From: Bacillus cereus
GTDB lineage: Bacteria > Bacillota > Bacilli > Bacillales > Bacillaceae_G
Length of the DNA: 64,000 nucleotides
Assembly (NCBI RefSeq): GCF_002584535.1
Contig: NZ_NUOT01000044.1
Location: 122,330 to 186,329, forward strand
Direction: 5' to 3'
Shown: in pieces, positions 2,079 to 41,550 of the stretch
Layout: each line of letters opens with the position of its first letter
Numbering within the stretch: position 1 is the stretch's first letter
Translations under genes and position numbers: made by a program
The notes under the pieces: generated by a model
Database searches by the model: none
What the model was told of the DNA's origin: nothing
Seen by the model: only the letters and a program-made list of their open reading frames with translations

Positions 2079-3470
2079 ATGGAAAACACATTAGTAAAAA
2101 GTCTGTATAGAGATACAGATAAATACGCAGGTCAAACAGTACAAGTATCAGGGTGGATTCGTAACTTACGTGATTCAAAAGCATTTGGTTTCATCGAATT
2201 AAACGACGGTAGCTTCTTCAAAAGCGTTCAAATCGTTTTCGATACAGAATTAGATAACTTCAAAGAAATTGCGAAACTTCCACTTAGCTCTTCAGTTAAA
2301 GTAGAGGGTAAAGTAATTGCAACACCTGGAGCAAAGCAACCATTTGAAATTAAAGCAGAAAAAATTGATATCGAGGGCTTATCAGATTCTGATTACCCAC
2401 TTCAAAAGAAGCGTCACACGTTTGAATACTTACGTACAATCGCTCACTTACGTCCAAGAACAAATGCATTCTCTGCAACGTTCCGCGTGCGTTCTATCGC
2501 AGCGTTTGCGATTCACCAATTCTTCCAAGAGCGTGGATTCGTACACGTTCATACACCAATTATCACGGGTAGTGATACAGAAGGTGCAGGCGAAATGTTC
2601 CGCGTAACAACGCAAGATTTAAACAATGTACCTAAAGGTGAAGACGGACAAGTTGACGAATCAAAAGACTTCTTCGGTAAAGAAACAAACTTAACGGTAA
2701 GTGGACAGCTGAATGCTGAAGCTTATGCATTAGCGTTCCGTGATGTATACACATTCGGACCTACATTCCGTGCTGAAAACTCAAACACAACTCGTCATGC
2801 AGCTGAGTTCTGGATGGTTGAGCCTGAGATTGCATTCGCTGAATTAGGTGATGTAATGAACCTTACAGAAGATATGCTGAAATATGCAATGAAATACGTA
2901 TTAGAGCATGCACCAGAAGAAATGGAATTCTTCAACAGCTTTGTTGATAAAACAGTTCTTGAGCGCATGAACAACGTAATCAACTCTGACTTTGGCCGCA
3001 TCACATACACAGAAGCAATTAAAGTACTTCAAGAATCAGGTGCTGACTTCAAATACCCAGTAGAATGGGGCATTGACTTACAAACAGAGCACGAAAGATA
3101 CTTATCAGAAGAAATCTTTAAACGCCCTGTATTCGTAACTGATTATCCGAAAGACATTAAAGCATTCTACATGCGCTTGAACGAAGATGGAAAAACAGTA
3201 GCTGCTACCGACCTTCTCGTTCCTGGCATCGGCGAATTAATCGGTGGAAGTCAACGTGAAGAAAGAATGGATGTTTTAACAGACAGAATTAAAGAATTAG
3301 GCATGAACGAAGAAGACTACTGGTGGTACTTAGAACTTAGAAAATACGGCGGTACAAAACACGCTGGATTCGGCCTTGGTTTCGAGCGCTTCCTAATGTA
3401 CATCACTGGCATGGCTAACATTCGTGACGTCATTCCATTCCCAAGAACTCCAGGTTCTTCGGAGTTTTAA
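2079..3470 (+). CDS. asnS: Asparaginyl-tRNA synthetase
   Basis: A 463-residue class IIb aminoacyl-tRNA synthetase that charges tRNA-Asn with asparagine in the cytoplasm. An N-terminal OB-fold anticodon-binding domain ([14 protein letters not shown], about residues 19-32) precedes the class II catalytic core. Motif 2 includes [21 protein letters not shown] and motif 3 includes the [15 protein letters not shown] region near the C-terminus. The start chosen is the ATG at 2079, eight bases after AAAGGAGA; a TTG at 2043 in the same frame lies in the leader terminator and is rejected. The length is normal for the family. It is controlled by the Asn T-box leader upstream and ends at a terminator at 3482. 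Confidence 0.97.
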
Positions 3471-6854: not shown

Positions 6855-8573
6855 ATGAAAGTAAATAAAAAACAAGTGATTAAATTATTGGAGACAATCG
6901 GCCTTTTTATGGAGCTTAAGGGCGAAAATCCATTTAAAATATCTGCATTTCGTAAAGCCGCAGCAGCATTAGAAAGCGATGATCGTAGTCTTTCTGAAAT
7001 TGAAGATTTCACAAAGATTCCGGGTATTGGAAAAGGAACAGCAGCGGTCATTCAAGAATATATTGAAGCTGGAACTTCAGAAGTATTAGAGGAGCTTGAA
7101 AAGGAAGTGCCAAGCAGTCTATTACCGTTATTAAAATTACCAGGGCTTGGTGGTAAAAAAGTAGCGAAGTTGTACAAAGAGCTTGGCGTTATTGATATGG
7201 AAACTTTGCAAAAGGCTTGTGAAGAAAATAAAGTACAGGCACTTGCGGGATTCGGTAAGAAAACAGAAGAGAAAATATTAGAAGCAATCGCTCAAGTAGG
7301 CTCTCGTCCAGAGCGATTACCGATTGCGATGGTCTTACCTATTGCCGGGGAAATAGAGAAGAAATTGTCGAATGTCCAGGAAATTGTTCGATTCTCTCGC
7401 GCTGGTAGCCTGCGCCGCGTTCGCGAAACGGTAAAAGATTTAGATTTTATTATCGCAACGGAAAATCCAGTAGCAGTACGTGAACATTTACTGCAATTTG
7501 ATAATATGATTGAAGTCATTGCGAGCGGTGATACAAAAGTATCCGTTCGTCTTCAATATGAATATGATATTTCAATTGATTTCCGTCTTGTAAAACCTGA
7601 AGAATTTATTACAACGCTTCATCATTTCACAGGTTCAAAAGATCATAACGTAAGAATGCGCCAAATTGCAAAAGATAAAGGTGAAAAGATTAGTGAGTAC
7701 GGTGTGGAAAATTTAGAGACAGGTGAAGTGAAGACGTTTGAAACAGAAGAAGCATTCTTTGCTCATTTTGGTCTACCATTTATTCCACCAGAAGTACGTG
7801 AAGATGGAAAAGAGCTTGAGTTGATTAAAGAATATCCAAATTTAATTCAGTTCTCTGATATACAAGGTGATTTACATATGCATACAACATGGAGTGACGG
7901 TGCTTTTTCAATTGAAGAAATGGTACAAGCATGCCGCGGGCGTGGGTATAAATTTATGGCAATTACGGATCATTCCCAATACTTGAAAGTAGCGAACGGT
8001 TTAACGAAAGAGCGTCTTCGTGAACAAGGAAAAGAGATTGAACGTATTAACGAAAAATACTCAGATATTACAATTTTACGCGGAATCGAAATGGATATTT
8101 TACCAGATGCAACGCTCGATTTTGATGATGAAGTATTAGCGGAGCTTGATTATGTCATTGGTGCAATCCATTCTAGCTTCTCACAAGACCGTGAAACAAT
8201 TATGAAACGCTTGCGTACAGCAATTGAAAATAAACATGTTACGATGATTGCCCACCCAACAGGTCGTCTTCTTGGACGCCGCGAAGGGTACGATGTAGAT
8301 ACAGATTTACTGATTGAACTCGCAAAAGAAACAGATACAATTTTAGAATTAAACGCGAATCCGAACCGCTTAGATTTAAGTGCGAAACTATTAAAGCAAG
8401 CACAAGATGCGGGCGTAAAAGTAGCGATCAATACTGATGCGCATACACTTGAAATGTTAGAAGATATGGAAACCGGTGTAGCGGCAGCTCGTAAAGGGTG
8501 GATTCAGAAAGATACCGTGATTAACACATGGGATATTGAACGTTTATTAGATTATATTAAACGGAATAAGTAA
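6855..8573 (+). CDS. polX: DNA polymerase/3'-5' exonuclease PolX
   Basis: A 572-residue family X polymerase with the bacterial PolX layout. Helix-hairpin-helix motifs (IPGIGKGTAAVI, residues about 56-68, and LPGLGGKKVAKL, about 95-107) come first. A Pol-beta nucleotidyltransferase core follows, with the metal-binding DLDFIIA at about 195-201. The C-terminal PHP domain starts at GDLHMHTTWSDG (about 336) and carries the His/Asp set for 3'-5' exonuclease and AP-endonuclease activity. Its role is gap filling in base excision repair. RBS GGCGGGG precedes the ATG. It sits upstream of mutS2 as in other Bacillus. Confidence 0.96.
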   Translation: MKVNKKQVIKLLETIGLFMELKGENPFKISAFRKAAAALESDDRSLSEIEDFTKIPGIGKGTAAVIQEYIEAGTSEVLEELEKEVPSSLLPLLKLPGLGGKKVAKLYKELGVIDMETLQKACEENKVQALAGFGKKTEEKILEAIAQVGSRPERLPIAMVLPIAGEIEKKLSNVQEIVRFSRAGSLRRVRETVKDLDFIIATENPVAVREHLLQFDNMIEVIASGDTKVSVRLQYEYDISIDFRLVKPEEFITTLHHFTGSKDHNVRMRQIAKDKGEKISEYGVENLETGEVKTFETEEAFFAHFGLPFIPPEVREDGKELELIKEYPNLIQFSDIQGDLHMHTTWSDGAFSIEEMVQACRGRGYKFMAITDHSQYLKVANGLTKERLREQGKEIERINEKYSDITILRGIEMDILPDATLDFDDEVLAELDYVIGAIHSSFSQDRETIMKRLRTAIENKHVTMIAHPTGRLLGRREGYDVDTDLLIELAKETDTILELNANPNRLDLSAKLLKQAQDAGVKVAINTDAHTLEMLEDMETGVAAARKGWIQKDTVINTWDIERLLDYIKRNK

Positions 8574-30757: not shown

Positions 30758-31072
30758 ATGGCAATTGTAAACGCAACTGACCAAAACTTCGCAGCTGAAA
30801 CAAGCGAAGGTATTGTATTATTAGATTTCTGGGCACCATGGTGTGGCCCTTGTAAAATGATCGCTCCTGTACTAGAGGAAATCGATGCAGAATTAAGCGA
30901 TAAAGTAAAAGTCGTAAAAGTAGACGTTGATGAAAACCAAGAAACTGCTCGTCAATTTGAAGTAATGAGCATTCCATCTCTTTTCGTATTAAAAGATGGT
31001 AAAGTGGTTGACCAAGCGTTAGGATACAAACCAAAAGAAGCGTTAGTAGAATTAGTTTCTAAACACTTCTAA
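30758..31072 (+). CDS. trxA: Thioredoxin
   Basis: A 104-residue thioredoxin, the main cytoplasmic protein-disulfide reductant. The active site WCGPC is in DFWAPWCGPCKMIAP (about residues 23-37), and the cis-Pro in SIPSLFVLKDGK (about 73-84). RBS GAAGGAGG. It is a single gene with its own terminator at 31079. Confidence 0.97.
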   Translation: MAIVNATDQNFAAETSEGIVLLDFWAPWCGPCKMIAPVLEEIDAELSDKVKVVKVDVDENQETARQFEVMSIPSLFVLKDGKVVDQALGYKPKEALVELVSKHF

Positions 31073-31157: not shown

Positions 31158-31215
31158 TTGACACTTATCGTAAGCGCTCTTATAATCAATCTGACGACAA
31201 TGAAAATCACTATCA
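31158..31215 (+). promoter_or_regulatory. Consensus promoter and Fur box of the iron-linked lipoprotein
   Basis: TTGACA (31158-31163) - 17 bp - TATAAT (31181-31186) is a perfect sigma-A promoter. TGAAAATCACTATCA at 31201-31215 matches the Fur 7-1-7 consensus at 12 of 14 defined positions and lies in the early transcribed region, a normal site for Fur repression. Confidence 0.8.
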
Positions 31216-31241
31216 CTTAAGGGCGTAGGGGGAAGTAATCC

Positions 31242-32414
31242 ATGACATTAAAGTTAAAAATATTATCTGCAGCAGCAGTAGCATCTCTTCTTTTTGCAGG
31301 CTGTGCGAAAGAGGAAACAAAAAAGTCTGAAGCACAAGATAAAAAAACAGAACAATCTGTTAAAAAAGAAGAGACAAAACAACAAGAAGTAGATTTTGTA
31401 CAAGCTTACAAAGATGGAGTAGCTGAACTTGAAAAAGCGAAAGATGGCAAAGAGGTTGACTTCGATAAAGTAACAAAGTTATATAAAGATAAATTACAAT
31501 CTCTTGTTCAAAAGTGTGATGGTGAATTTAATGAACAAATCGATCAAACAATTACAGCTGCATTAGAAGCTGGGAAAAAGAAAGAAATGGAACCTATGGT
31601 TGTAAAACAACTATTTGATAAATTAATGCAAAAAGAGTTTTTCCAATCGATGCGCCACGAATTTAAAGAAATTGATACAAACTGGGGCAAAAAAGATGTT
31701 GTGAAAAAAGAAATGGATGAAGCTCTAGCTTTTTATAAAGGTGTAGAAGGTACAGTTGGGAAACGTGATACGGCATACGGTACACAAATGGCTTCTCAAA
31801 TTAAAGGCGGCTTTGATGAAATGACAGCTGCAATTGAAAAGGATGACAAACTTGCATTTGCGCTTGGAAAACAAGTTGTAGATAAAACGTTAATGAAAAC
31901 GTTCTATTTTGCAACAGGTGCAGTGCCGAATGGTTATGCTACAAAAATGGTAGAAGAAGTAAAGAAAGATGAGAAAAAAGCTAAAATTGAACAAGCAGAA
32001 GGATGGGCATTTTATCAAGCAATTTATCCGTATATGAAAAAAGCAGCTCCTGAAGATGCAGACTTTATCTTAAGGCAGTTTGATTTAAAAACTGATGTGA
32101 AAACAGTTGATGCAAAAGCGGTAAATCAAGCGTTTGTACGTGGATTTGCAAAAGTTGCATTAGGTGAGTATAAAGAAAGCCAAGAGAATTTTGGAAAAGA
32201 TAAAGGTCCTATTACAGCATTAGAAGGTGCGTTATTCATTAATATCATTGAAAATGATTTGAAAACAGTACTTGGCGAACAGCAAACAGTAGAATTAACA
32301 AAAACAGCTCAATCTTATTTAGAAGCAGTAAAAGCGAAGAAGAAAGAAGATGCTGATAAATTGTTACCACAACTTGAGGCTGCGTTAAATAAAGCTGTTG
32401 AAGCAGCGAAATAA
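31242..32414 (+). CDS. Iron-regulated lipoprotein, helical repeat, related to the FTR1-partner protein
   Basis: A 390-residue lipoprotein (lipobox FAGC, Cys21) with a Lys/Glu-rich linker to about residue 48 and an all-helical mature part. Residues about 72-195 align by eye with most of the protein at 36613, encoded just before the FTR1 permease. The shared features are the VDFDKVTKLY / ANFNEAKKAY segment, then F.EIDTN / F.DYDTN, then ALAFYKGVEGTVGKRD / AFATYEALSPVVGERN. A similar EGWAFYQAIYPYMKK near residue 253 suggests an internal repeat. The family is not recognised; it is not a typical EfeO. The Fur box and this similarity suggest a surface iron-binding partner (inference). Confidence 0.72.
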   Translation: MTLKLKILSAAAVASLLFAGCAKEETKKSEAQDKKTEQSVKKEETKQQEVDFVQAYKDGVAELEKAKDGKEVDFDKVTKLYKDKLQSLVQKCDGEFNEQIDQTITAALEAGKKKEMEPMVVKQLFDKLMQKEFFQSMRHEFKEIDTNWGKKDVVKKEMDEALAFYKGVEGTVGKRDTAYGTQMASQIKGGFDEMTAAIEKDDKLAFALGKQVVDKTLMKTFYFATGAVPNGYATKMVEEVKKDEKKAKIEQAEGWAFYQAIYPYMKKAAPEDADFILRQFDLKTDVKTVDAKAVNQAFVRGFAKVALGEYKESQENFGKDKGPITALEGALFINIIENDLKTVLGEQQTVELTKTAQSYLEAVKAKKKEDADKLLPQLEAALNKAVEAAK

Positions 32415-32500
32415 TTTGCTCATACGTATGTCTTTTTGAAGAAACCTTGTCTTGACAGGGTTTCTTCTTTTACATAGTGTGGTAGAGGGTGGTGAAATGA

Positions 32501-33448
32501 ATGAAAGTATTAATTACTGGAGGAGCAGGGTTTATCGGAAGCCATCTTGCTTTGAAATTGTTAGGACAAGGAAAGCAAGTTGTACTACTTGATAATTTCC
32601 ACTCCTATTATGCAAAATCAAGAAAACAGTTTCAGCTTGAACAAGTGCAGCGATATGGAACTGTCCCATTTTACGAGTGCGATATTTTGCATAAAGAAGA
32701 TGTGAAAGCTGTTATGCAGCAAGAAAAGGTTGATGCAGTAATTCATCTAGCTGGATTTCCAGGGGTGAGACCGTCGTTGAAGATGCCAGGTGCTTATGTT
32801 GATATTAATATAAAAGGGACGAGTAATGTATTAACATGTGCAGGAGAAGAAAATATAAAACATGTCATCGTGGCATCCTCTTCTTCTGTGTACGGAGAGA
32901 AAATGGGAATGCCTTTGCAGGAGGAAATGGCCAATGGTCGAGTTTTATCTCCTTATGCAGCATCAAAATACGGAGCGGAATCGCTTTGTCATGCTTATCA
33001 ATATATGTATGGGTTTCAACTAAATATTTTACGTTTCTTTACTGTATATGGTCCATGGGGGCGTCCTGATATGGCAATAGCGAGCTTTATTCGAAAATTG
33101 CTAAATGGAGAAGAAATTGTTGTATACGGAAAGGGAACAGGCCGAGATTACACGTACATTGATGATATTACGGAAGGAATTGCTCTTACGTTAGAGTCGA
33201 ATAGAAGTGATGTGTACAATCTAGGGTCGAATGAACCGATTTTAATGACAGAATTACTTGCGCAGTTAGAGAAGCATTTCCCATTGATGCGTGTAAGGAG
33301 AGAGGCGCATCGTAAAGGGGATGTGACATCGACATGGGCTGATATTTCAAAGGCGAAAGAACAGCTAGGATATGAGCCGCGTGTATCTTTTGCAGAAGGG
33401 TTGGAGCGAACGATTGCTTGGGCGAAACAATATCCGGATACTGTTTAA
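32501..33448 (+). CDS. NAD-dependent nucleotide-sugar epimerase
   Basis: A 315-residue extended SDR of the GalE / UDP-glucuronate 4-epimerase type. NAD-binding GGAGFIGSHL is at residues 7-16; the catalytic Tyr/Lys motif YAASKYGAE follows a Ser run in VASSSSVYGE. FTVYGPWGRPDMAIASFI is typical of UDP-sugar 4-epimerases. It should make the activated sugar for the glycosyltransferases downstream. The GTG/ATG region has RBS GAGGGTGG; ATG 32501. The next gene overlaps its end. Confidence 0.88.
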   Translation: MKVLITGGAGFIGSHLALKLLGQGKQVVLLDNFHSYYAKSRKQFQLEQVQRYGTVPFYECDILHKEDVKAVMQQEKVDAVIHLAGFPGVRPSLKMPGAYVDINIKGTSNVLTCAGEENIKHVIVASSSSVYGEKMGMPLQEEMANGRVLSPYAASKYGAESLCHAYQYMYGFQLNILRFFTVYGPWGRPDMAIASFIRKLLNGEEIVVYGKGTGRDYTYIDDITEGIALTLESNRSDVYNLGSNEPILMTELLAQLEKHFPLMRVRREAHRKGDVTSTWADISKAKEQLGYEPRVSFAEGLERTIAWAKQYPDTV

Positions 33449-34343
33449 TCTTTGTGGTATTTTTTTGTTATGTGTTTTCTTTGTCATATCGTGGAAATCG
33501 TTTGAAGCGTCTTCTTTGTGGAAACAACTATATGGATTATGGAAACATCCTGATGCGGTAGTGCTTCTTATCATGATATATGGTGTTGCATTTTTCTTTC
33601 GTGCTTATGCATGGAAGTTATATCTTCACCATCATATTACAATGAAAGAGTCTTTATATGGATTGTTTTATAGTTTGTTTATTAATCATGTTTCTCCTTT
33701 GAAAGTAGGGGACGCTATTCGCATTGCGATTATTACAAAAGAAAAGAAAGTGACATTAGGAGAAGCGACACAATCAGTTGTTGTGCTCCGTATATTAGAT
33801 TTGCTTATCCTTGGTATATTTGGAGCCGTAGGGATGTTTATACTGTGGGGGGATATTTTGTTAAATGCTCCCGTTATCCTTGCTTGTATATGTATTGGAA
33901 TTGGTATGTTGTTTCTTGTGCATAAGAAAGCACCGCAATTTGTAGAGAATCAGTGGAAGCAATTAAAGGCAGGTTTGTTTACAATACAAGGGATCATCAT
34001 TATCTTGCTGATTGTAATAAGCTGGATTTGCGAAGCTTTTGTTATATATGAAATTGCGAGTTCTCTTACATTTATACAAGCGATTTGGGTCAATAGCGTG
34101 ACCATCGCGGGGCAAGTATTTCAATTAACGCCAGGCGGTATTGGGACATATGAAACGGTGATGACGTTTGCGTTAAGAGCGCTTGGGATAGAATCGGTCG
34201 AGGCGTATGAATGGTCATTAATGAGTCATGGATTTAAGTTTATATTTTCTTATGGTGTGGGCGCACTTTTACTCGTTTTATACCCAATGGAATTGCGCTC
34301 ACTTGTTAGTCAGAAGGGGGAAAACATCCGGTGGAAGAAGTGA
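33414..34343 (+). CDS. LPG-synthase TM-type (UPF0104/YbhN) flippase-like membrane protein
   Basis: About 309 residues with eight or nine transmembrane helices and the UPF0104 hallmark segments SLFINHVSPLKVGDAIRI (about 85-102) and AGQVFQLTPGGIGTYETV. The family includes the flippase domain of MprF and glycolipid-linked proteins of archaea and bacteria. The start is uncertain: TTG 33414 has GGAG seven bases upstream and is preferred; ATG 33372 would add 14 residues with a weak RBS. Both overlap the epimerase end, implying translational coupling. Probable role: lipid or lipid-linked sugar transfer across the membrane (inference). Confidence 0.82.
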   Translation: MLGRNNIRILFNLCGIFLLCVFFVISWKSFEASSLWKQLYGLWKHPDAVVLLIMIYGVAFFFRAYAWKLYLHHHITMKESLYGLFYSLFINHVSPLKVGDAIRIAIITKEKKVTLGEATQSVVVLRILDLLILGIFGAVGMFILWGDILLNAPVILACICIGIGMLFLVHKKAPQFVENQWKQLKAGLFTIQGIIIILLIVISWICEAFVIYEIASSLTFIQAIWVNSVTIAGQVFQLTPGGIGTYETVMTFALRALGIESVEAYEWSLMSHGFKFIFSYGVGALLLVLYPMELRSLVSQKGENIRWKK

Positions 34344-35806
34344 AAAAGGCATCAAAATTTGAAAAGGTAGCGGCCCGCTGCTGGAACTTGCTGAATGAAG
34401 GGAAACCATTTACACCGATTTTTGTATTCGGCACATTTTTATTGTTTTCCATCTCGCAGTTTGGACAACCTGGTTTTATTCCAGCATTTTTTAGCAGTTT
34501 TATCCTCATTGTACCTTTACTTGTTTTATATTATTTGTTTGATTTTCCATTGTTTTTACGAAATTATTTATGGTTTCCGTTTATCGCCTATTTAATTGTA
34601 TTTAAGGTGGTTCATTTACCATTATTCTTTTTGGCATTGGGATTATATTTCTTCTTTACAATTTTATTTTGGGGAACATTATATTATCATCTGCGGATTG
34701 GGACATCATGGTTGAACTTTACACGATTTTGGAAACTTGTGTTAAAAAATAGTGATTCTACAAGTGGGAATGCACAAGAACAAATGCCAAAGTTTTTACT
34801 ATTACTTTCGCTTTGGTATTACTACTACGAGTTCTTCCGAGAAGACGGTACATTTAGTGGTGTAGATTGGAAAACGCTTCTTATATTTTACGGTGCTCTT
34901 CTCGTATATACACTTATATTACATCGTAATTTATTTGATTGGCAGCCGAAAGCAATTCCTACTTATACGCAAAATATGCCTGAGAATGAAAAGGCATTAA
35001 ATGAAAAAGTAGTCGTGATTGTAATTGACGGTATGCGAAAAGATCGTTTTGAGGCGGCGCATACACCGTATTTAGATTCACTTCGAAAACAAGGGACCGA
35101 GTTTTTAAATATGGAAACGGTATATCCAGCTCGTACGGTTGTATGTTTCTCCTCTATGTTTACAGGAACGTATCCATTTGAGCATGGTATTAAATCGAAT
35201 ATGGTTTGGAAGCATGGAGTGAATGTAGAGAGTATTTTTGATTCTCTTCGTAAAGTAGATAAAACAGGGAAAATGTTGGCGGTTGCGCATCTAGTCGATG
35301 CATTTGGCGATGATGTGGAAACATTTACGGCTGTAATGAAAAATGATGTTGTTGACTCGAAAATTATGGAGAAAGCAAGAAAGGTTATGGATGAACAAGA
35401 TCCTGATTTATTTATCGTCCAGCTAATTTCTACAGATCAAACAGGTCATAGCCGCGGCGTGTTATATGATGAATATTTACAAAAGATTCATGAAGCAGAT
35501 CAGCATGTGAAGCGGTTTATTGAGCATTTAGAGAAAACAGGAAAAGCAGAAAATACGACGTTCATTATTTGCGCAGACCATGGGCAAGCGGATGGAATTG
35601 GTGGTCATGGTCATTTAGACGAGGGCGAGCGGTTTGTACCATTCTTTATGTACGGTCCTCATATTGCTCAAGGTATAAAAGTAGAAGAGAAGAAAAGTCT
35701 TGTTTCTATAGCACCTACAATTGCATACTTGTTAGGAGCGCCGTATCCATCCCATAGTCGTGGACCTGTATTAGTAGAAGCGTTAAAGGAGCAGGAACAG
35801 AAATGA
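34331..35806 (+). CDS. Membrane-anchored phosphodiesterase of the alkaline phosphatase superfamily
   Basis: A 491-residue protein with about five N-terminal transmembrane helices (to residue about 200) and a C-terminal type I phosphodiesterase/nucleotide pyrophosphatase domain. Metal and nucleophile motifs are VVIVIDGMRKDRFE (about 223-236) with the nucleophile Thr in YPARTVVCFSSMFTG, and ICADHGQADGIGGHGHL toward the end. This fold removes phospho-groups, as in GPI- or lipid-glycan assembly. The GTG start follows AAGGGGG and overlaps the preceding gene by 13 bp. It overlaps the next gene by 4 bp, so all are coupled. Confidence 0.85.
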   Translation: MEEVKKASKFEKVAARCWNLLNEGKPFTPIFVFGTFLLFSISQFGQPGFIPAFFSSFILIVPLLVLYYLFDFPLFLRNYLWFPFIAYLIVFKVVHLPLFFLALGLYFFFTILFWGTLYYHLRIGTSWLNFTRFWKLVLKNSDSTSGNAQEQMPKFLLLLSLWYYYYEFFREDGTFSGVDWKTLLIFYGALLVYTLILHRNLFDWQPKAIPTYTQNMPENEKALNEKVVVIVIDGMRKDRFEAAHTPYLDSLRKQGTEFLNMETVYPARTVVCFSSMFTGTYPFEHGIKSNMVWKHGVNVESIFDSLRKVDKTGKMLAVAHLVDAFGDDVETFTAVMKNDVVDSKIMEKARKVMDEQDPDLFIVQLISTDQTGHSRGVLYDEYLQKIHEADQHVKRFIEHLEKTGKAENTTFIICADHGQADGIGGHGHLDEGERFVPFFMYGPHIAQGIKVEEKKSLVSIAPTIAYLLGAPYPSHSRGPVLVEALKEQEQK

Positions 35807-36549
35807 AAGTAATTGTTTTTATACCAGCCTTAAATGAAGAGGATTCTATTGCGCATGTCATTCAAAAGGTGCCGCGTCATTTTCACCCAAATGTAACGGT
35901 AGAAGTACTTGTCATCGATGATGGATCAACGGATCGGACCGTAGCTGTTGCAAAAGAAGCGGGGGCGGAACATATCGTTTCTTTTGCAAAAAACGGCGGA
36001 CTTGGTGCAGCTGTCCGAGCAGGTTTGCAGGAGAGTTATCGACTTGGTGCTGATATTAGTGTAATGATTGATGCTGATGATGAATACCCAGCTGATGAAA
36101 TTCCGAATGTACTGGAGCCTATTTTTGCAGGAGAAGCAGATTATACGATGGGTTCTCGTTTTCGCGGAACAATTCGAGGAATGAGATTACATCGACGTCT
36201 TGGGAATTACTGCTTTACGATGTTGCAATGTTTGTTACTAAGGAAGTGGATTCGAGATGGGCAATCCGGTATGCGAGCCTTTTCTAGACAAGCAATGGAG
36301 CATGGAGAAATTATTCACGATTATAACTATGCTCAAGTTATTACTTTGAATTTAGTACGAAAAGGGTTTCGAGTACAGGAAGTTCCGATTACGTATAAAG
36401 TGCGAGAAACAGGAGAGTCGTTCATCTCTTTTCGGAAGTATATGACGCGTGTATTTCCAGCGATTTGGAAAGAAATGGCGCGTCCGGTAGAGAAAGTTAC
36501 GATTGACTATGCTGCACATGTATTAATTGAAGATAAGAAATGCTCATAA
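35803..36549 (+). CDS. GT2 glycosyltransferase, dolichyl-phosphate-sugar synthase-like
   Basis: A 248-residue family 2 glycosyltransferase. The N-terminal GT-A fold shows VFIPALNEEDSI (residues 4-15), VLVIDDGSTDRT (35-46), GGLGAAVRAG and the metal-binding MIDADDEYP (about 88-96). RDGQSGMRAFSR is the usual acceptor-side motif. There is no obvious C-terminal membrane domain, as in DPM1. It would make a polyprenyl-phosphate sugar, the donor type used by GT-C enzymes such as the one at 38341 (inference). ATG overlaps the preceding stop (ATGA). Confidence 0.87.
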   Translation: MKVIVFIPALNEEDSIAHVIQKVPRHFHPNVTVEVLVIDDGSTDRTVAVAKEAGAEHIVSFAKNGGLGAAVRAGLQESYRLGADISVMIDADDEYPADEIPNVLEPIFAGEADYTMGSRFRGTIRGMRLHRRLGNYCFTMLQCLLLRKWIRDGQSGMRAFSRQAMEHGEIIHDYNYAQVITLNLVRKGFRVQEVPITYKVRETGESFISFRKYMTRVFPAIWKEMARPVEKVTIDYAAHVLIEDKKCS

Positions 36550-36577
36550 CGGGCCTTTCTTATCTTGACAATAAAAA

Positions 36578-36592
36578 TGATAATAATTATCA
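36578..36592 (+). promoter_or_regulatory. Perfect Fur box upstream of the FTR1 operon
   Basis: TGATAATAATTATCA is an exact match to the Bacillus Fur 7-1-7 consensus (TGATAAT-N-ATTATCA), extended by AA and TT on the flanks. It lies 20 bp before the start of the FTR1-partner gene and just after the GT2 gene. TTGACA at 36565 would be the -35 hexamer. Confidence 0.92.
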
Positions 36593-36612
36593 TTAACTCG
36601 GGAGGAACTTTC

Positions 36613-37368
36613 GTGAAAAAAATCATTACATCATTATTTGTTAGTATTTTCTTAATATTCTCAATTCAAACAAGTGCGTTTGCTTATTCGTATGGAAATC
36701 CGAACGAAGAAAAAGTTGCTGAAGCATATAAACAAATGGTTACAAAGCTAGATGAAAATCCGGCAAACTTTAATGAAGCGAAAAAAGCATATGAAAATGT
36801 ACAAGAAGAAATTGATCAGCACATGGGAAAAGAACCTTCTAAAGCAATGATGAAGGACTTTGATAAACAAAATAAAGAAGATATTATTGCTGATATGCAA
36901 AAAATTCTTGCGCTTAATATTAATCGTCGTTTAACAAATGTTGATGAGAAATTTAAAGACTATGATACAAACAAGCGTTTATTAGCAAAAGCATTCGCTA
37001 CATATGAAGCGTTATCGCCAGTTGTTGGTGAACGAAATAAAGAGTTAGATACAAAGGTAAAGGATGAATTTAATAAAGCATTAGATTCATTAGGAAACCC
37101 AGGATTATTTGGAGTAGGTCAAAAGGAAGCAAATCATGATGCTTTCAAGAAAAGTAAAGATGTGATTTTAACAAGTTTACAAAAAGAGTTTAAAATTAAA
37201 GATTTTAAAGTGGGGCACTTTGATGCGAGCGGAAAAGAAGAAGCTTCAGAGAACACAGGTAAAACAGAATGGACAGATTTAAGTAACTTGAAAAACTGGG
37301 CTCCAATTGTAGTCATTGTACTTATACTTGTTGGGGTCATTGTATATGCTGTGAGAAAACGTAAGTAA
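36613..37368 (+). CDS. Secreted, C-terminally anchored partner of the FTR1 permease
   Basis: A 251-residue surface protein. A Sec signal peptide (residues 1-24, cleavage about SAFA-YS) is followed by an all-helical domain (about 30-210), a short linker and a C-terminal membrane anchor (WAPIVVIVLILVGVIVYAV) with a basic tail. The helical domain aligns by eye with the lipoprotein at 31242. The start is GTG 36613, eight bases after GGGAGG. It lies directly upstream of the FTR1 permease under a perfect Fur box, so an iron-capturing extracytoplasmic partner of the permease is likely. It lacks features I associate with EfeO. Family not recognised. Confidence 0.78.
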   Translation: MKKIITSLFVSIFLIFSIQTSAFAYSYGNPNEEKVAEAYKQMVTKLDENPANFNEAKKAYENVQEEIDQHMGKEPSKAMMKDFDKQNKEDIIADMQKILALNINRRLTNVDEKFKDYDTNKRLLAKAFATYEALSPVVGERNKELDTKVKDEFNKALDSLGNPGLFGVGQKEANHDAFKKSKDVILTSLQKEFKIKDFKVGHFDASGKEEASENTGKTEWTDLSNLKNWAPIVVIVLILVGVIVYAVRKRK

Positions 37369-37386
37369 GGATGAGGAGGAAGAGCG

Positions 37387-38292
37387 ATGCAGCTTCAGGC
37401 ATTTCTCATTACATTTCGTGAAGTATTAGAAGCGTTGCTTATTGTTGGGATTATTACAACATATTTAAAGCGTACAGATAGTAAGCAGTTTGTGAAATAT
37501 GTTTGGTTAGGAGCAGGGCTTGCGGTTGTAGCGAGTTATATTGTCGCTCTTGTCTTCCAAGTTGTGTTTACTGGTTTTGCTGCTATGGGTAGCGAAATGT
37601 ATTTGAAGATATCTATTATTTTTATTTCGGCCATTTTACTTACACAAATGGTATTTTGGATGGCGGAACATAGTAAAAATATGCAAGCAAATATGGAAAA
37701 TAAAATGAGTAAGTATATTACAACTGGAAACATAATTGGAATGGTCGTGCATTCGTTTCTTGTTGTACTTCGAGAAGGTGTTGAAACAGTATTTTTCTTC
37801 GCGGCTATTACAGGTGGAAATATTGGAGCGGCGATGCAAGGCTGGGGAGCTATTACAGGCTTGCTCGTTGCAGCTGGTGTTAGTTACCTATTCTTTAAAG
37901 GGACGATGCGTATTTCACTTAAAGTATTCTTTAAAGTAACAGGCGCATTTATCGTTTTAATTGCAGCTGGTCTTCTTGTACAGGGTGTTGCCATGCTTCA
38001 GGATTTAAAAATACTCGGCAGCGTTATGCCACATGTATACGATATTACATGGTTATTACCAGAACATCCAATTGATTATGCTCACTATTTGCGTGACCAT
38101 GGTACTGCACCACTTCTTTCCGGTGATATTGGTATTTTCTTGAAAGCCTTTTTAGGATATTCATCGATGCCATCTCTTGAAGAGGTGCTCGTGTATATTG
38201 GATATTTTGTTGTGTTATATATGTTAATCATCTTTAAAAAACCTGTTAAAAAAAAGCAAGCAGTGATCGAAGAAAATAAATCAGTAAGCTAA
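37387..38292 (+). CDS. FTR1-family iron permease
   Basis: A 301-residue FTR1/EfeU-type permease with seven predicted helices. Both REXXE iron-binding motifs are visible: FREVLEAL at residues 10-17 and LREGVETV near 124-131. FTR1 permeases import iron, usually with an oxidase or an EfeO/P19-like partner. Here the only adjacent partner is the anchored helical protein upstream, under the perfect Fur box. RBS GAGGAGG. Terminator directly after. Confidence 0.92.
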   Translation: MQLQAFLITFREVLEALLIVGIITTYLKRTDSKQFVKYVWLGAGLAVVASYIVALVFQVVFTGFAAMGSEMYLKISIIFISAILLTQMVFWMAEHSKNMQANMENKMSKYITTGNIIGMVVHSFLVVLREGVETVFFFAAITGGNIGAAMQGWGAITGLLVAAGVSYLFFKGTMRISLKVFFKVTGAFIVLIAAGLLVQGVAMLQDLKILGSVMPHVYDITWLLPEHPIDYAHYLRDHGTAPLLSGDIGIFLKAFLGYSSMPSLEEVLVYIGYFVVLYMLIIFKKPVKKKQAVIEENKSVS

Positions 38293-38323
38293 AAAGTACA
38301 AGGAGTTTTCCTTGTACTTTTTT
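38292..38323 (+). terminator. Terminator of the FTR1 operon
   Basis: Stem AAAGTACAAGGA / CCTTGTACTTT with a short T-rich loop and T-run. The next gene's RBS starts only a few bases later. Confidence 0.88.
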
Positions 38324-38340
38324 TGCAGAAAGGAAATATG

Positions 38341-39750
38341 ATGAAACAAATATTACGTATATGGGCAGTTATCCTGTTTACTAGTGCGATTTGTATTCGA
38401 TTTTTCTATGTGAGCCCGTTTGCGGCGACATGGGACGAAGTCGATTTTACGCTTGCATTAAAGCAATACGACATATTAGCGATGCAGCCCCATTTTCCAG
38501 GTTATCCTTTTTTTATTTTAGGGGGAATGATAACGCATGTTTTTATAGAAAACCCTGTGCAATCGTTAGGGGTTTTTAATGCCATCATGGCACTCGGCGC
38601 AGCTTTTCCGATGTATTGGCTTGCGCGCCATTATGTAAGTAAAACGGGCGCTCTTATTGTTGTAGCTGTTTTACAAACGAGCGGTTATTTCTCTCTTTTA
38701 GTAACGCAGCCTATGTCAGAGGGCGCAGCATTAGCAATCGTATGGTGGTATATATGGAGTATAGAACGGGCTTTTCGTACAAAGAATTTTCAAGCTCAAT
38801 TTTGGCCAGTCATCTTTTTTGCGCTATTAATGGGTATACGCTTATCATATGCACCATTTGGGATAGCACTTGTTTTGTTATTATGGCAGCAATGGCATGA
38901 AGAAAAATGGCGGTTTATAATCTTATTTTGTACAACTTTTCTGTCACAGCTAGTTTGGGTTTGTGCTCTTATTTGGAACATTGGTGGAATAACGGGATTG
39001 TGGAAAATTTCTTTCGGATTTGTAGAAGGCCATTTTACTGAGTGGGGCGGAGCGGTTACAGAAACGGGTGAACCACTTATTTCACGTCTCTTCCGTTTAT
39101 TTTCCGAAAACATTGTTTTTGCAGGAATAGGTATACACTCCTACTATCTGACAGGTTTCTTTCTTTTCTTTTTGTTTCTATTTGTTTTACAATGGAAGAA
39201 CATACGTTACTATCCAAAGGCTTTAATCGCTATTGGAAGTTTTTATTTTCTTTGGAATTTACTTGGACAAAATATTGATAAACCGCGTCATTCTTATCCG
39301 ATTGTAGCGATGTTCCTTTGCGTACTTGCTATTTCGTGGTTGAAAAAACATCGTGGTATTGTATTGCTGTTATTTGCAACAAGCCAATTTATAGTGAGTA
39401 TACCGCTTATGAAAGAACAACAAGTGGAGGTACCGGCCACGTATCAGCTTGCATCCTATTTAGAGGGCAAAGAGCAGCCATTTATTGTATACACGTGGGA
39501 AGAGACGAGGGTTATGGAATACTTGCAGATGCCATATGAACATAAACGTTTCTACACATATGACTATTTTTTACAGGACAAAAAATATCATAAAAATGAT
39601 ACGATATATGTTACAAATCATCTTATTGAAGGATTCCAAAAGCAAGGGATCGATATAAAAGGACGGATGGAACAAGTAGCTGTCTTTCGTTCTAATCCAT
39701 TATTTGATCCTATTTATCATAAAATAGTGTTATATAAGTGGAAAAAATGA
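38341..39750 (+). CDS. GT-C fold membrane glycosyltransferase (GT39-like)
   Basis: A 469-residue polytopic protein with about ten helices. The first extracytoplasmic loop carries the acidic pair of GT-C enzymes in ATWDEVDFTLAL (about residues 30-41), followed by PHFPGYPFFILGG. Such enzymes move a sugar from a polyprenyl-phosphate donor to a target outside the membrane, which would fit the DPM1-like GT2 at 35803. The start is ATG 38341 after GAAAGGA; ATG 38338 is possible. It follows the FTR1 terminator closely, so expression needs read-through or its own promoter. Confidence 0.78.
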   Translation: MKQILRIWAVILFTSAICIRFFYVSPFAATWDEVDFTLALKQYDILAMQPHFPGYPFFILGGMITHVFIENPVQSLGVFNAIMALGAAFPMYWLARHYVSKTGALIVVAVLQTSGYFSLLVTQPMSEGAALAIVWWYIWSIERAFRTKNFQAQFWPVIFFALLMGIRLSYAPFGIALVLLLWQQWHEEKWRFIILFCTTFLSQLVWVCALIWNIGGITGLWKISFGFVEGHFTEWGGAVTETGEPLISRLFRLFSENIVFAGIGIHSYYLTGFFLFFLFLFVLQWKNIRYYPKALIAIGSFYFLWNLLGQNIDKPRHSYPIVAMFLCVLAISWLKKHRGIVLLLFATSQFIVSIPLMKEQQVEVPATYQLASYLEGKEQPFIVYTWEETRVMEYLQMPYEHKRFYTYDYFLQDKKYHKNDTIYVTNHLIEGFQKQGIDIKGRMEQVAVFRSNPLFDPIYHKIVLYKWKK

Positions 39751-39765: not shown

Positions 39766-41550
39766 GTGCACGAGCATTTAAAAGAAAAATTAGCGATTTT
39801 ACCAGATCAACCAGGTTGTTACTTAATGAAAGATAGGCAAGGAACAGTTATATATGTCGGGAAGGCAAAGGTGCTCAAAAATCGTGTGCGCTCGTATTTT
39901 ACTGGATCACATGATGGAAAGACACTCCGTCTTGTTGGAGAAATTGTTGATTTTGAATATATTGTTACCTCCTCGAATTTGGAGGCGCTCATTTTAGAAT
40001 TAAATTTAATTAAAAAATATGATCCAAAATATAATATTCAATTAAAGGACGATAAAACATATCCATTTATTAAAATTACAGCTGAAAAACAGCCACGTTT
40101 GCTTATTACGAGAAATGTAAAAAAGGATAAAGGGAAGTATTTTGGTCCGTATCCAAATGCGCAGTCAGCTCATGAAACGAAAAAGCTGTTAGACCGCATG
40201 TATCCGCTCCGTAAGTGCGCAAACATGCCGGATAAAGTTTGTTTATATTATCATATGGGACAATGTTTAGCACCTTGTGTAAAAGAGGTAACCGATGAAC
40301 AAAATCAAGAAATTGTTGATGAAATTGTTAAGTTTTTAAACGGTGGACATAAAGAAGTTCGTTCAGAATTGGAAAAGAAAATGTATGAAGCATCGGAAAA
40401 ATTAGAGTTTGAACGTGCAAAAGAATTAAGAGATCAAATTGCCCATATGGATGCGATTATGGAAAAACAGAAGATGATTATGAGCGACTTAGTTGACCGT
40501 GATGTGTTTGGTTATGCGGTTGATAAAGGTTGGATGTGCGTGCAAGTTTTCTTTGTTCGAAAAGGTAAGTTAATAGAGCGCGATGTCTCTATGTTTCCAA
40601 TTTATGATGAGCCTGAAGAAGGATTTTTAACATTTATCGGTCAATTTTATGAACAAAACAATCATTTTAAACCAAAAGAAATTGTAGTACCAGGAAGTAT
40701 TGATCCTGAATTAGTAGAGCGTTTTTTAGAGGTGGATGTAACGCAGCCGAAACGCGGAAAGAAAAAAGAACTCGTTGAATTAGCAAATAAGAATGCGAAA
40801 ATTGCTTTAGGAGAGAAGTTTTATTTAATTGAGCGTGATGAAGAGCGGACGATTAAAGCGGTTGAAAATTTAGGTAAGAAACTTGATATTGAAACGCCGT
40901 ATCGTATTGAAGCATTTGATAACTCAAATATCCAAGGGACGAATCCAGTTTCAGCAATGATTGTCTTTATTGATGGAAAACCAACGAAAAAAGAGTATCG
41001 AAAATATAAGATAAAGACAGTTCAAGGGCCAGATGATTATGAATCGATGCGAGAGGTTGTACGCCGCCGATATACTCGTGCATTGAAAGAGAATTTACCA
41101 CTACCGGATTTAATTGTGATTGATGGTGGGAAAGGACATCTTGCAGCTGCTAGTGATGTGCTTGAAAATGAACTTGGATTATATATCCCAATGGCTGGAC
41201 TTGTTAAGGATGATAAGCACCGTACATCGCACTTAATAATTGGTGACCCTCCTGAACCTGTTATCCTTGAAAGGAATAACCAAGAATTTTATTTATTACA
41301 GCGTATTCAAGATGAAGTACACCGATTTGCGATTACGTTCCATCGTCAGCTTCACGGGAAATCTGTTATCCAATCTGCCTTAGATGGGATTCCTGGAGTA
41401 GGAGAAAAACGGAAAAAGGTATTGTTAAAACATTTTGGTTCGTTAAAAAAAATGAAAGAAGCTACTGTGACAGAATTTGTCGAAGCCGGAATGCCGCAAA
41501 ATGTTGCAGAAACCATTTATTCCTATTTAACAAATAAGAAGACGTTGTAG
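39766..41550 (+). CDS. uvrC: Excinuclease ABC subunit C
   Basis: A 594-residue UvrC, which makes the 3' and 5' incisions in nucleotide excision repair. The GIY-YIG domain begins [20 protein letters not shown] (residues about 16-35). A UvrB-interacting UVR segment follows near 200-235. The RNase H-like 5' nuclease domain has [11 protein letters not shown] and [10 protein letters not shown]-terminal helix-hairpin-helix motifs ([13 protein letters not shown]) complete it. GTG start after GAGAGGAG. The neighbours trxA (upstream) and sdh (downstream) match Bacillus order. Confidence 0.96.

Follow-up and report, generated by a model that had tools for sequence, protein, structure and literature searches.

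Iron permeases with secreted partners and a Bacillus cereus locus

FTR1-family iron permeases are widespread and often occur without EfeO, and both the pairing of FTR1 with a secreted partner and the existence of FEA1-type proteins in algae are known already. Here we describe an iron-related gene cluster in a 64,000-nucleotide stretch of Bacillus cereus DNA (assembly GCF_002584535.1, contig NZ_NUOT01000044.1, positions 122,330 to 186,329), referred to throughout as the window. Eight co-directional + strand genes, flanked by trxA (30758-31072) and uvrC (39766-41550), encode in order a lipoprotein (FEA_lipo), an epimerase, a UPF0104 flippase-like protein, a membrane phosphodiesterase, a GT2 glycosyltransferase, a membrane-anchored surface protein (FEA_anch), an FTR1 permease and a GT-C glycosyltransferase. 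Comparisons across bacteria suggest that these parts work together as one iron-capture system, and we consider it moderately probable that the locus is a single Fur-controlled iron-acquisition system of three modules, namely FEA capture, lipid-carrier glycosylation and a permease. The computations establish the homology of the two FEA proteins, their Fur sites, the co-inheritance of the genes, the co-divergence of FEA_anch with FTR1 and a swap of the permease.

The EfeUO(B) and FepABC systems likewise combine an FTR1 permease bearing two REXXE motifs with a dedicated secreted helical partner, which is an M75 protein there and an FEA protein here; the window locus differs further in its co-inherited lipid-carrier glycan module and in having no DyP peroxidase among its eight genes. 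The partners in P19-cFtr1, FetMP and FtrABCD are P19-type or cupredoxin proteins. These systems, as described in PMC9174327, resemble the window locus in joining an FTR1-family permease to an extracytoplasmic partner other than EfeO, whereas the partner here belongs to a helical family and comes with a glycan module. A transporter of the FbpABC/FutABC kind stands in the place of the permease beside FEA and glycan genes in two other genomes (loci L215 and L216, below). We know of no classical Fbp or Fut locus that carries FEA proteins or glycan genes.

Streptococcal Pgf (PgfS, PgfE, PgfM) is an epimerase, GT2 and GT-C trio whose glycosylation targets adhesins. The same trio is present in the window locus, where the polyprenyl-phosphate-sugar GT2 matches the NCBIfam models AglJ (E 1.3e-32), PgfS (1.3e-19) and PpgS (1.2e-19), each below its cut-off, and the GT-C match is weak; the gene order is kept in most loci examined. 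Pgf however is not an iron system, and the phosphodiesterase and UPF0104 protein are extra in the window locus.

The algal literature describes Chlamydomonas FEA1, Ostreococcus Fea1 and diatom ISIP2a as iron-starvation surface proteins with repeated Fea1 domains, for which a concentration of iron at the surface was suggested (PMC4855317, PMC7676907), and PMC8098128 describes algal FEA1 as N-glycosylated. FEA_lipo resembles them in matching, below cut-off, the NCBIfam model 'FEA1-related lipoprotein'. The proteins described here differ in being bacterial, in giving no match to the Pfam Fea1 family PF07692 (0/6 genomes), in having FTR1 or an ATP-binding cassette (ABC) transporter as partner and in the glycan pathway of their locus, a distinction that does not draw on direct comparison with algal sequences. 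Our searches of an open-licence library found no report of a Fur-controlled bacterial FEA system with a lipid-carrier glycan pathway and a changeable permease. Beside EfeO the locus gives FTR1 another partner family, one that has Fur boxes and co-diverges with the permease as its cognate, and it links iron acquisition to a dedicated glycosylation pathway, predicting that mutants in the sugar enzymes are iron-uptake mutants. Tractable bacteria could serve to test what FEA1-type proteins do, a matter of debate in algae.

Inheritance, rearrangement and regulation of the FEA and glycan genes

We searched 249 genomes of the order of Ectobacillus, none of them from the B. cereus group, with a FEA_anch profile and found the protein in 67, of which 66 had their loci examined at length and one (G004) as a short locus only. 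The phosphodiesterase (E<=1e-60) occurs in the identical 67 genomes, and GT-C in these and two others, G064 and G189, which have a broken copy of it without any further island gene detected close by. Glycan genes lie in the same locus as FEA_anch in 64/66 cases (58/60 loci, 4/4 of L105-L108, and the Ectobacillus loci L001, of E. antri, and L002, of E. panaciterrae, which keep the full trx-to-uvrC order). The first-pass annotation of the window had described the iron genes as interleaved with a glycan cluster and had proposed a comparison of gene neighbourhoods; in this order the comparison confirms the linkage, and rather than interleaved the genes are inherited as one unit. On a uvrC tree, built by a quick method from 140/249 genomes (65/67 with FEA and 75/182 without, the 75 drawn from among the matches listed, favouring uvrC like that of the window), the island is gained or lost at least 17 times when well-supported branches are counted, and 24 times on the best tree. 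FEA_anch and phosphodiesterase agree in 17/17 independent contrasts on this tree because their genome sets are identical, and contrasts of this kind cannot separate block transfer from functional coupling.

The glycan pathway might indeed be functionally unrelated to iron, with the island merely gained and lost as a block, as would be in keeping with its position in one locus in 64/66 cases, where a single event changes all, and with the weak correlation between FEA_anch and phosphodiesterase distances. We judge this improbable, since a split lineage keeps both halves of the island with a Fur box on each, since FEA, GT2, phosphodiesterase and GT-C stay together through a change of permease, and since the linkage of FEA to GT-C recurs in a gammaproteobacterium.

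The split is found in G101 and G207, close relatives that represent one event, in which FEA_lipo, FEA_anch, FTR1 and GT-C lie ~470 and ~380 kb off, while the epimerase, flippase, phosphodiesterase and GT2 remain at the trx-uvrC site; all of the genes are kept. The glycan operon, now detached, is preceded at 45 nt by a 13/14 Fur box of its own, beside promoter-like sequence. This box is the sole site of at least 12/14 in either 19-kb locus, against an expectation of <=0.05 sites of 13/14 per locus.

The permease change was seen in a phylum sample, where FEA_anch matched 7/348 genomes, three already in the order set, two strong others (G299, locus L215, and G436, locus L216, both other Bacillota) and two weak. 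In L215 (2452-10910) and L216 (5220-17602) FEA, two-repeat FEA, epimerase, flippase, phosphodiesterase, GT2 and GT-C occur together, with phosphodiesterase 53-55% and GT2 62% identical to those of the window, and a binding-protein-dependent ABC transporter stands where FTR1 would be. No FTR1 was found in the G436 genome; G299 carries one elsewhere. The L215 transporter matched BPD_transp_1 and ABC_tran. Its binding protein, the one compared with the PDB, matches 6g7n best (E 1.7e-102), an entry whose name says no more than solute-binding protein; next come 2pt1, 'Iron transport protein' (7.4e-102), and further iron-binding proteins, among them 2voz, 'periplasmic iron-binding protein' (1.7e-89). 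Its nearest NCBIfam models are 2-aminoethylphosphonate ones, below cut-off. In L216 a 13/14 Fur box lies in the promoter region of an epimerase-led operon (epimerase, flippase, phosphodiesterase, GT2, FEA, two adjacent two-repeat FEA genes, GT-C) and a 14/14 box precedes the transporter. In L215 a 13/14 box is followed by the transporter, flippase, phosphodiesterase, GT2 and FEA genes, co-directional with gaps <=74 nt, and the epimerase and GT-C lie upstream of this transporter-led run; 0.02-0.03 sites of 13/14 are expected by chance per locus. The swap suggests that FEA and the glycan set form the conserved core, and the permease looks interchangeable. The first-pass proposal of a partner family for FTR1 alone is accordingly too narrow, as the same set also occurs with a ferric ABC transporter. 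The two weak matches of the phylum sample (G399, G313; L213, L214, L217, L218) were discarded, as no other island gene accompanies them.

Among 72,556 plasmid records FEA_anch was found in one, from Aeromonas caviae, and FEA_lipo in none. The 6 kb on each side of the Aeromonas match contain a row of genes for a multiheme cytochrome, FTR1, an amine-oxidase/UDP-galactopyranose-mutase-like flavoprotein, FEA and GT-C, with FTR1, FEA and GT-C within 4.3 kb. This record (L100, NZ_AP026896.1:3030019-3042270) is labelled plasmid; at 4.94 Mb it is probably a mislabelled chromosome.

Chance co-location is disfavoured by the genome split, the permease swap and the tree contrasts. Functional coupling of the FEA and glycan genes is well supported, and the conserved link between the surface proteins and a lipid-linked glycan pathway, raised at first pass, is borne out by co-inheritance, the split lineage and the swap.

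We compared pairwise protein distances corrected for uvrC, with 51 genomes in one run and 60 in a second. FEA_anch and FTR1 have a partial r of 0.92, a value reached in 0/2000 permutations, which reflects two FEA_anch and two FTR1 types switching together; the type of FEA_lipo switches separately. The epimerase, flippase, phosphodiesterase and GT-C correlate among themselves at r 0.5-0.7, and FEA_anch correlates with GT-C at 0.48 and with FEA_lipo at 0.34. These values indicate that FEA_anch and FTR1 are a cognate pair, that FEA_lipo evolves more independently and that GT-C belongs with the glycan set.

Fur boxes had been noted on both surface-protein genes, and both recur across genomes: the FEA_anch box matches at 14/14 and the FEA_lipo box at 12/14 positions, and sites of at least 12/14 lie upstream of 64/66 and 51/62 orthologues respectively. 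With mechanically chosen starts, boxes precede 56/62 FEA_anch and 43/58 FEA_lipo genes vs 3/716 other open reading frames. About 1.5 matches of 12/14 are expected by chance per 64 kb, and the FEA_lipo box, weak alone, gains support from its promoter position and its conservation in orthologues. Sites of at least 12/14 were found upstream of 0/63 flippase, 0/65 phosphodiesterase, 0/66 GT2, 1/66 GT-C, 0/66 FTR1, 0/49 trx and 0/59 uvrC genes. In the linked layout read-through from FEA_lipo may reach the glycan genes, which is uncertain because a terminator-like site follows 46/62 FEA_lipo genes. We discounted the apparent 11/14 boxes that 14 loci show around the start of the epimerase gene, since 12 begin at the coding start itself, one lies 187 nt upstream and one 80 nt upstream. 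A further Fur site listed in L074 is a coordinate artefact.

The FEA proteins and their distance from EfeO

FEA_lipo and FEA_anch are homologous helical proteins. The similarity is weak by pairwise BLASTP (23% identity, E 0.015) and by hhalign with small alignments of six and three sequences (Prob 33%, E 4.5e-4). Enlarging the families to 63 and 59 sequences raised this to Prob 90.5% at E 1.3e-6, and with signal and anchor trimmed the values were 85% and 5.9e-6, while reversed and four column-shuffled lipoprotein profiles gave Prob <=0.5%. The FEA_anch profile itself retrieves the FEA_lipo gene, 4.7-4.9 kb off, in 2/67 genomes (E 1.3e-4 and 3.6e-4). The relatedness of the two surface proteins, first proposed from shared segments, is therefore upheld at the profile level. 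FEA_anch also aligns to a second, later part of the FEA_lipo profile (Prob 41%, E 2.8e-4), and with two such alignments FEA_lipo therefore probably holds two FEA-type repeats.

A lipobox pattern is present in 57/58 FEA_lipo homologues and a hydrophobic C-terminal segment in 62/62 FEA_anch homologues. Following the signal peptide, Y-S-Y is near-invariant (61/62 FEA_anch homologues, and also L100, L215 and L216), and the mature N-terminus of FEA_anch is probably YSYG. AlphaFold2 models from three-sequence alignments are all-helical, with a mean predicted local distance difference test (pLDDT) score of 74 for FEA_lipo and 73 for FEA_anch. Sequence searches of solved structures with both proteins returned nothing relevant, and a PHROGs scan weak matches only.

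On NF038033, the 'FEA1-related lipoprotein' model, whose cut-off is 250 bits, FEA_lipo scores 40 bits (E 1.9e-10), and 30/33 FEA_lipo homologues match it at E<=0.001 (best 3.1e-14), which points to a branch related to this family without being its equivalog. PF07692 is without a match in the general Pfam family lists, one of which shows 25 of its 26 families. Matches to NF038033 in G442, G354, G268 and G539 cover model positions 4-86 only; they are probable signal-peptide matches and were discarded.

The M75 proteins, whose fold is a bilobal double four-helix bundle, were a further candidate family. In PMC9174327 their metal-site motifs are given as HXXE and GEEDRY. Were both surface proteins ordinary EfeO/EfeM (M75) proteins, the locus would be a divergent EfeUO system, and several matches lean that way: 6/27 anchored homologues match PF09375 at E<=0.1 (best 5.4e-4), hhalign of FEA_anch against 20 M75 domains gives Prob 46% and E 2e-4 over 37 columns where reversed or shuffled M75 gives <=5.2%, and EfeM 7q1g is the top Foldseek match of the FEA_anch model (prob 0.95, E 0.29, non-significant). 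The two proteins of the window however have no match to PF09375 at E<=1, and a GEEDRY-type motif occurs in 0/62 FEA_anch and 0/58 FEA_lipo homologues vs 20/20 M75 domains. HXXE strings occur in 43/62 FEA_anch and 35/58 FEA_lipo proteins with no conserved aligned HXXE; no alignment column of FEA_lipo keeps a His in more than half of the proteins, and the conserved His of FEA_anch falls after the domain. Ordinary EfeO is rejected on the missing motifs and the missing PF09375 match, which makes a divergent EfeUO system very unlikely indeed, while a faint relation remains and remote common ancestry of FEA and M75 is possible.

The distribution of the two families bears on the same question. M75 is present in 30/249 genomes and FEA in 67, and they share 3 genomes against an expectation of 8.1 (P 0.017, uncorrected for the tree). 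Once the tree is taken into account, 0 same vs 4.1 opposite changes among 17 pairs give a median p of 0.125, which is not significant, and complementarity of M75 and FEA is only suggestive. FTR1 lies near the M75 gene in 20/20 loci examined, of 30 M75 genes found, and on present comparisons it seems that FEA takes the place of EfeO next to this permease. As to the first-pass suggestion of a distinct family, separation from EfeO stands, and no database match makes both proteins ordinary EfeO-like or imelysin members. The family is not wholly new, since the lipoprotein branch is related to NF038033 and the FEA_anch branch has a faint M75/imelysin relationship.

Proposed mechanism and features of the locus

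We infer iron binding, Fe(III) preference, the glycan acceptor and the role of each glycan enzyme, with family knowledge guiding the roles given to GT2, UPF0104 and GT-C and the choice of the FEA proteins as likely acceptors. Both FEA proteins are secreted, the lipoprotein with probably two repeats and the anchored protein with a single domain, and would capture iron on the outer face of the membrane, most likely as Fe(III). The epimerase would supply a sugar nucleotide, GT2 would put the sugar onto undecaprenyl phosphate, the UPF0104 protein would flip the lipid-linked sugar, GT-C would transfer it on the outer side of the membrane and the phosphodiesterase would edit or recycle a phosphodiester. 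This pathway is predicted to mature the system. Its most likely targets for glycosylation are the FEA proteins, since these, transporters aside, are the secreted proteins that the observed arrangements share. Import would fall to the permease, FTR1 here as the specific partner of FEA_anch and a FutA/FbpA-type ABC transporter in two other genomes.

The serine plus threonine content is ~0.2 in FEA linkers vs 0.1 in the domains (59 anchored proteins, 57 lipoproteins), which is compatible with O-glycosylation, no proof of it. The Aeromonas FEA has no linker, and the glycosylation site may therefore be in the domain, with its near-invariant Y-S-Y. That linkers reach merely ~20% serine plus threonine, that the Aeromonas FEA lacks linker and anchor with GT-C kept, and that a membrane phosphodiesterase is unexpected for simple protein O-glycosylation would also fit a tentative alternative, in which a lipid or wall polymer made during iron starvation, and not the FEA proteins, carries the glycan; the FEA proteins would read this polymer, bind it or be held by it, or the polymer would itself collect Fe(III). 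Pfam however reveals no polymerase, ligase or exporter look-alike among the eight genes, GT2 resembles single-sugar polyprenyl-phosphate synthases, and the GT-C, GT2 and epimerase trio resembles the streptococcal Pgf protein-glycosylation set.

The FEA proteins might bind a ligand other than inorganic iron, such as heme or a siderophore, a reading for which the generic helical bundles of the models leave room. We regard this as quite unlikely, as the linked transporters are of inorganic-iron kinds: FTR1 in Aeromonas as well as in the order of Ectobacillus, and a FutA/FbpA-like system in L215.

Carbonate plays a part in the iron site of phytotransferrin. A bolder extension of glycosylated FEA capture, which we hold to be doubtful, would make the FEA and glycan set a transporter-independent, glycan-dependent Fe(III) capture module extending beyond one phylum, with the sugar, or else a phospho-sugar that the phosphodiesterase has trimmed, forming part of the iron site and taking the part of the carbonate. 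YSY FEA proteins, matured by an undecaprenyl-phosphate-sugar pathway, would then collect surface Fe(III) and pass it to FTR1 or a ferric ABC importer, and bacterial FEA proteins would be glyco-iron-receptors, the counterpart of algal FEA1.

A number of observations weigh against a single three-module system. The genes are adjacent in 64/66 loci and a single transfer or deletion moves all of them, so that co-occurrence overstates independence. Stop codons interrupt 3/67 phosphodiesterase matches (many in G121, one each in G065 and G048) with FEA_anch retained, and the epimerase was undetected in 8/66 islands (L052, L055, L056, L073, L077, L079, L105, L107). Co-divergence of FEA_anch with the phosphodiesterase is weak (r 0.23); weak r values too are rarely reached by permutation (<=9/2000), and the permutation test is non-discriminating, therefore the size of r counts and not its significance. 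In the window a strong terminator-like hairpin parts the Fur-boxed FEA_lipo from the glycan genes, and Fur sites of at least 12/14 precede 2/56 epimerase genes, both in the split lineage, leaving linked loci without a box before the glycan genes. Of two further 13/14 sites in L216, both off the island promoters, one is at 2670 and the other, at 7755, falls within the phosphodiesterase gene. Regarding the proteins, PF07692 has no match at E<=10 in the six genomes, Foldseek and VIA gave matches to the FEA models at the level of helical bundles only, none of them significant (imelysin-type chains are among them without standing out), no residue-level iron site was identified in the FEA proteins, and the linker absent from Aeromonas FEA is the obvious O-glycosylation site.

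Positions and strand of the genes named at first pass agree with our mapping (Table 1), and Pfam recovers the families assigned to the epimerase, UPF0104, phosphodiesterase, GT2 and, weakly, GT-C genes. The FTR1 assignment also holds, with 127.8 bits to PF03239 against a cut-off of 25.3 and both REXXE motifs (REVLE and REGVE), two such motifs being present in 66/66 homologous FTR1 proteins examined. The true start of the UPF0104 gene is probably later than 33372. Terminator-like sites follow FTR1 in 55/66 homologues.

Table 1 Genes and candidate regulatory sites between trxA and uvrC in the window
Feature	Position	Strand	Evidence
Sigma-A-type promoter of FEA_lipo (TTGACA-17-TATAAT)	31158..31186	+	12/12 consensus positions
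Fur box of FEA_lipo, TGAAAATCACTATCA	31201..31215	+	12/14 match
FEA_lipo, lipoprotein with lipobox LFAGC, probably two FEA-type helical repeats	31242..32414	+	NF038033 and FEA_anch profile match
Intrinsic-terminator-like hairpin 3' of FEA_lipo	32438..32467	+	13-pair stem and T run
NAD-dependent sugar-nucleotide epimerase, GalE/LegB-like	32501..33448	+	PF01370 E 1.6e-57; GalE model below cut-off
UPF0104 / LPG_synthase_TM flippase-like membrane protein	33372..34343	+	PF03706 E 5.1e-31
Membrane-anchored type I phosphodiesterase, alkaline-phosphatase superfamily	34331..35806	+	PF01663 E 6.8e-33
GT2, polyprenyl-phosphate-sugar synthase type (AglJ/PgfS/PpgS-like)	35803..36549	+	PF00535 E 8.7e-23
Sigma-A-type promoter of FEA_anch, overlapping the Fur box	36565..36593	+	11/12 consensus positions
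Fur box of FEA_anch, perfect 7-1-7, TGATAATAATTATCA	36578..36592	+	14/14; 0.05 expected per 64 kb
FEA_anch, FEA-domain protein with signal peptide and C-terminal membrane anchor	36613..37368	+	Signal and anchor read from sequence
FTR1-family iron permease, two REXXE motifs	37387..38292	+	PF03239 E 6.7e-37; EfeU model below cut-off
Terminator-like hairpin 3' of FTR1	38291..38325	+	Read from sequence, outside terminator-scan listing
GT-C-type integral-membrane glycosyltransferase, PMT_2-like	38338..39750	+	PF13231 E 4.7e-4, weak, below cut-off

FEA_lipo was undetected by tblastn in 4/60 loci (L066, L068, L074 and L081, the last cut by a contig end); in L066, L068 and L074, where no FEA_lipo was detected upstream of the island, a more diverged copy may exist. 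Certain islands appear to be decaying. Only a broken GT-C was found in L101 (G064) and L102 (G189), and in L105 (G121) the phosphodiesterase is broken and the epimerase undetected while FEA_anch and FTR1 are present. The 13/14 Fur-like site at 2670-2684 of L216, outside the island, is near a ferritin-like gene (2966-3451, named by eye). Across L033-L092 FEA_lipo falls into two subfamilies, ~50-65% and 27-36% identical to that of the window, and the rearranged island of L075 (8467-12226) encodes an enlarged FEA_lipo of 810 amino acids and an enlarged FEA_anch of 404 amino acids, both possibly with extra repeats.

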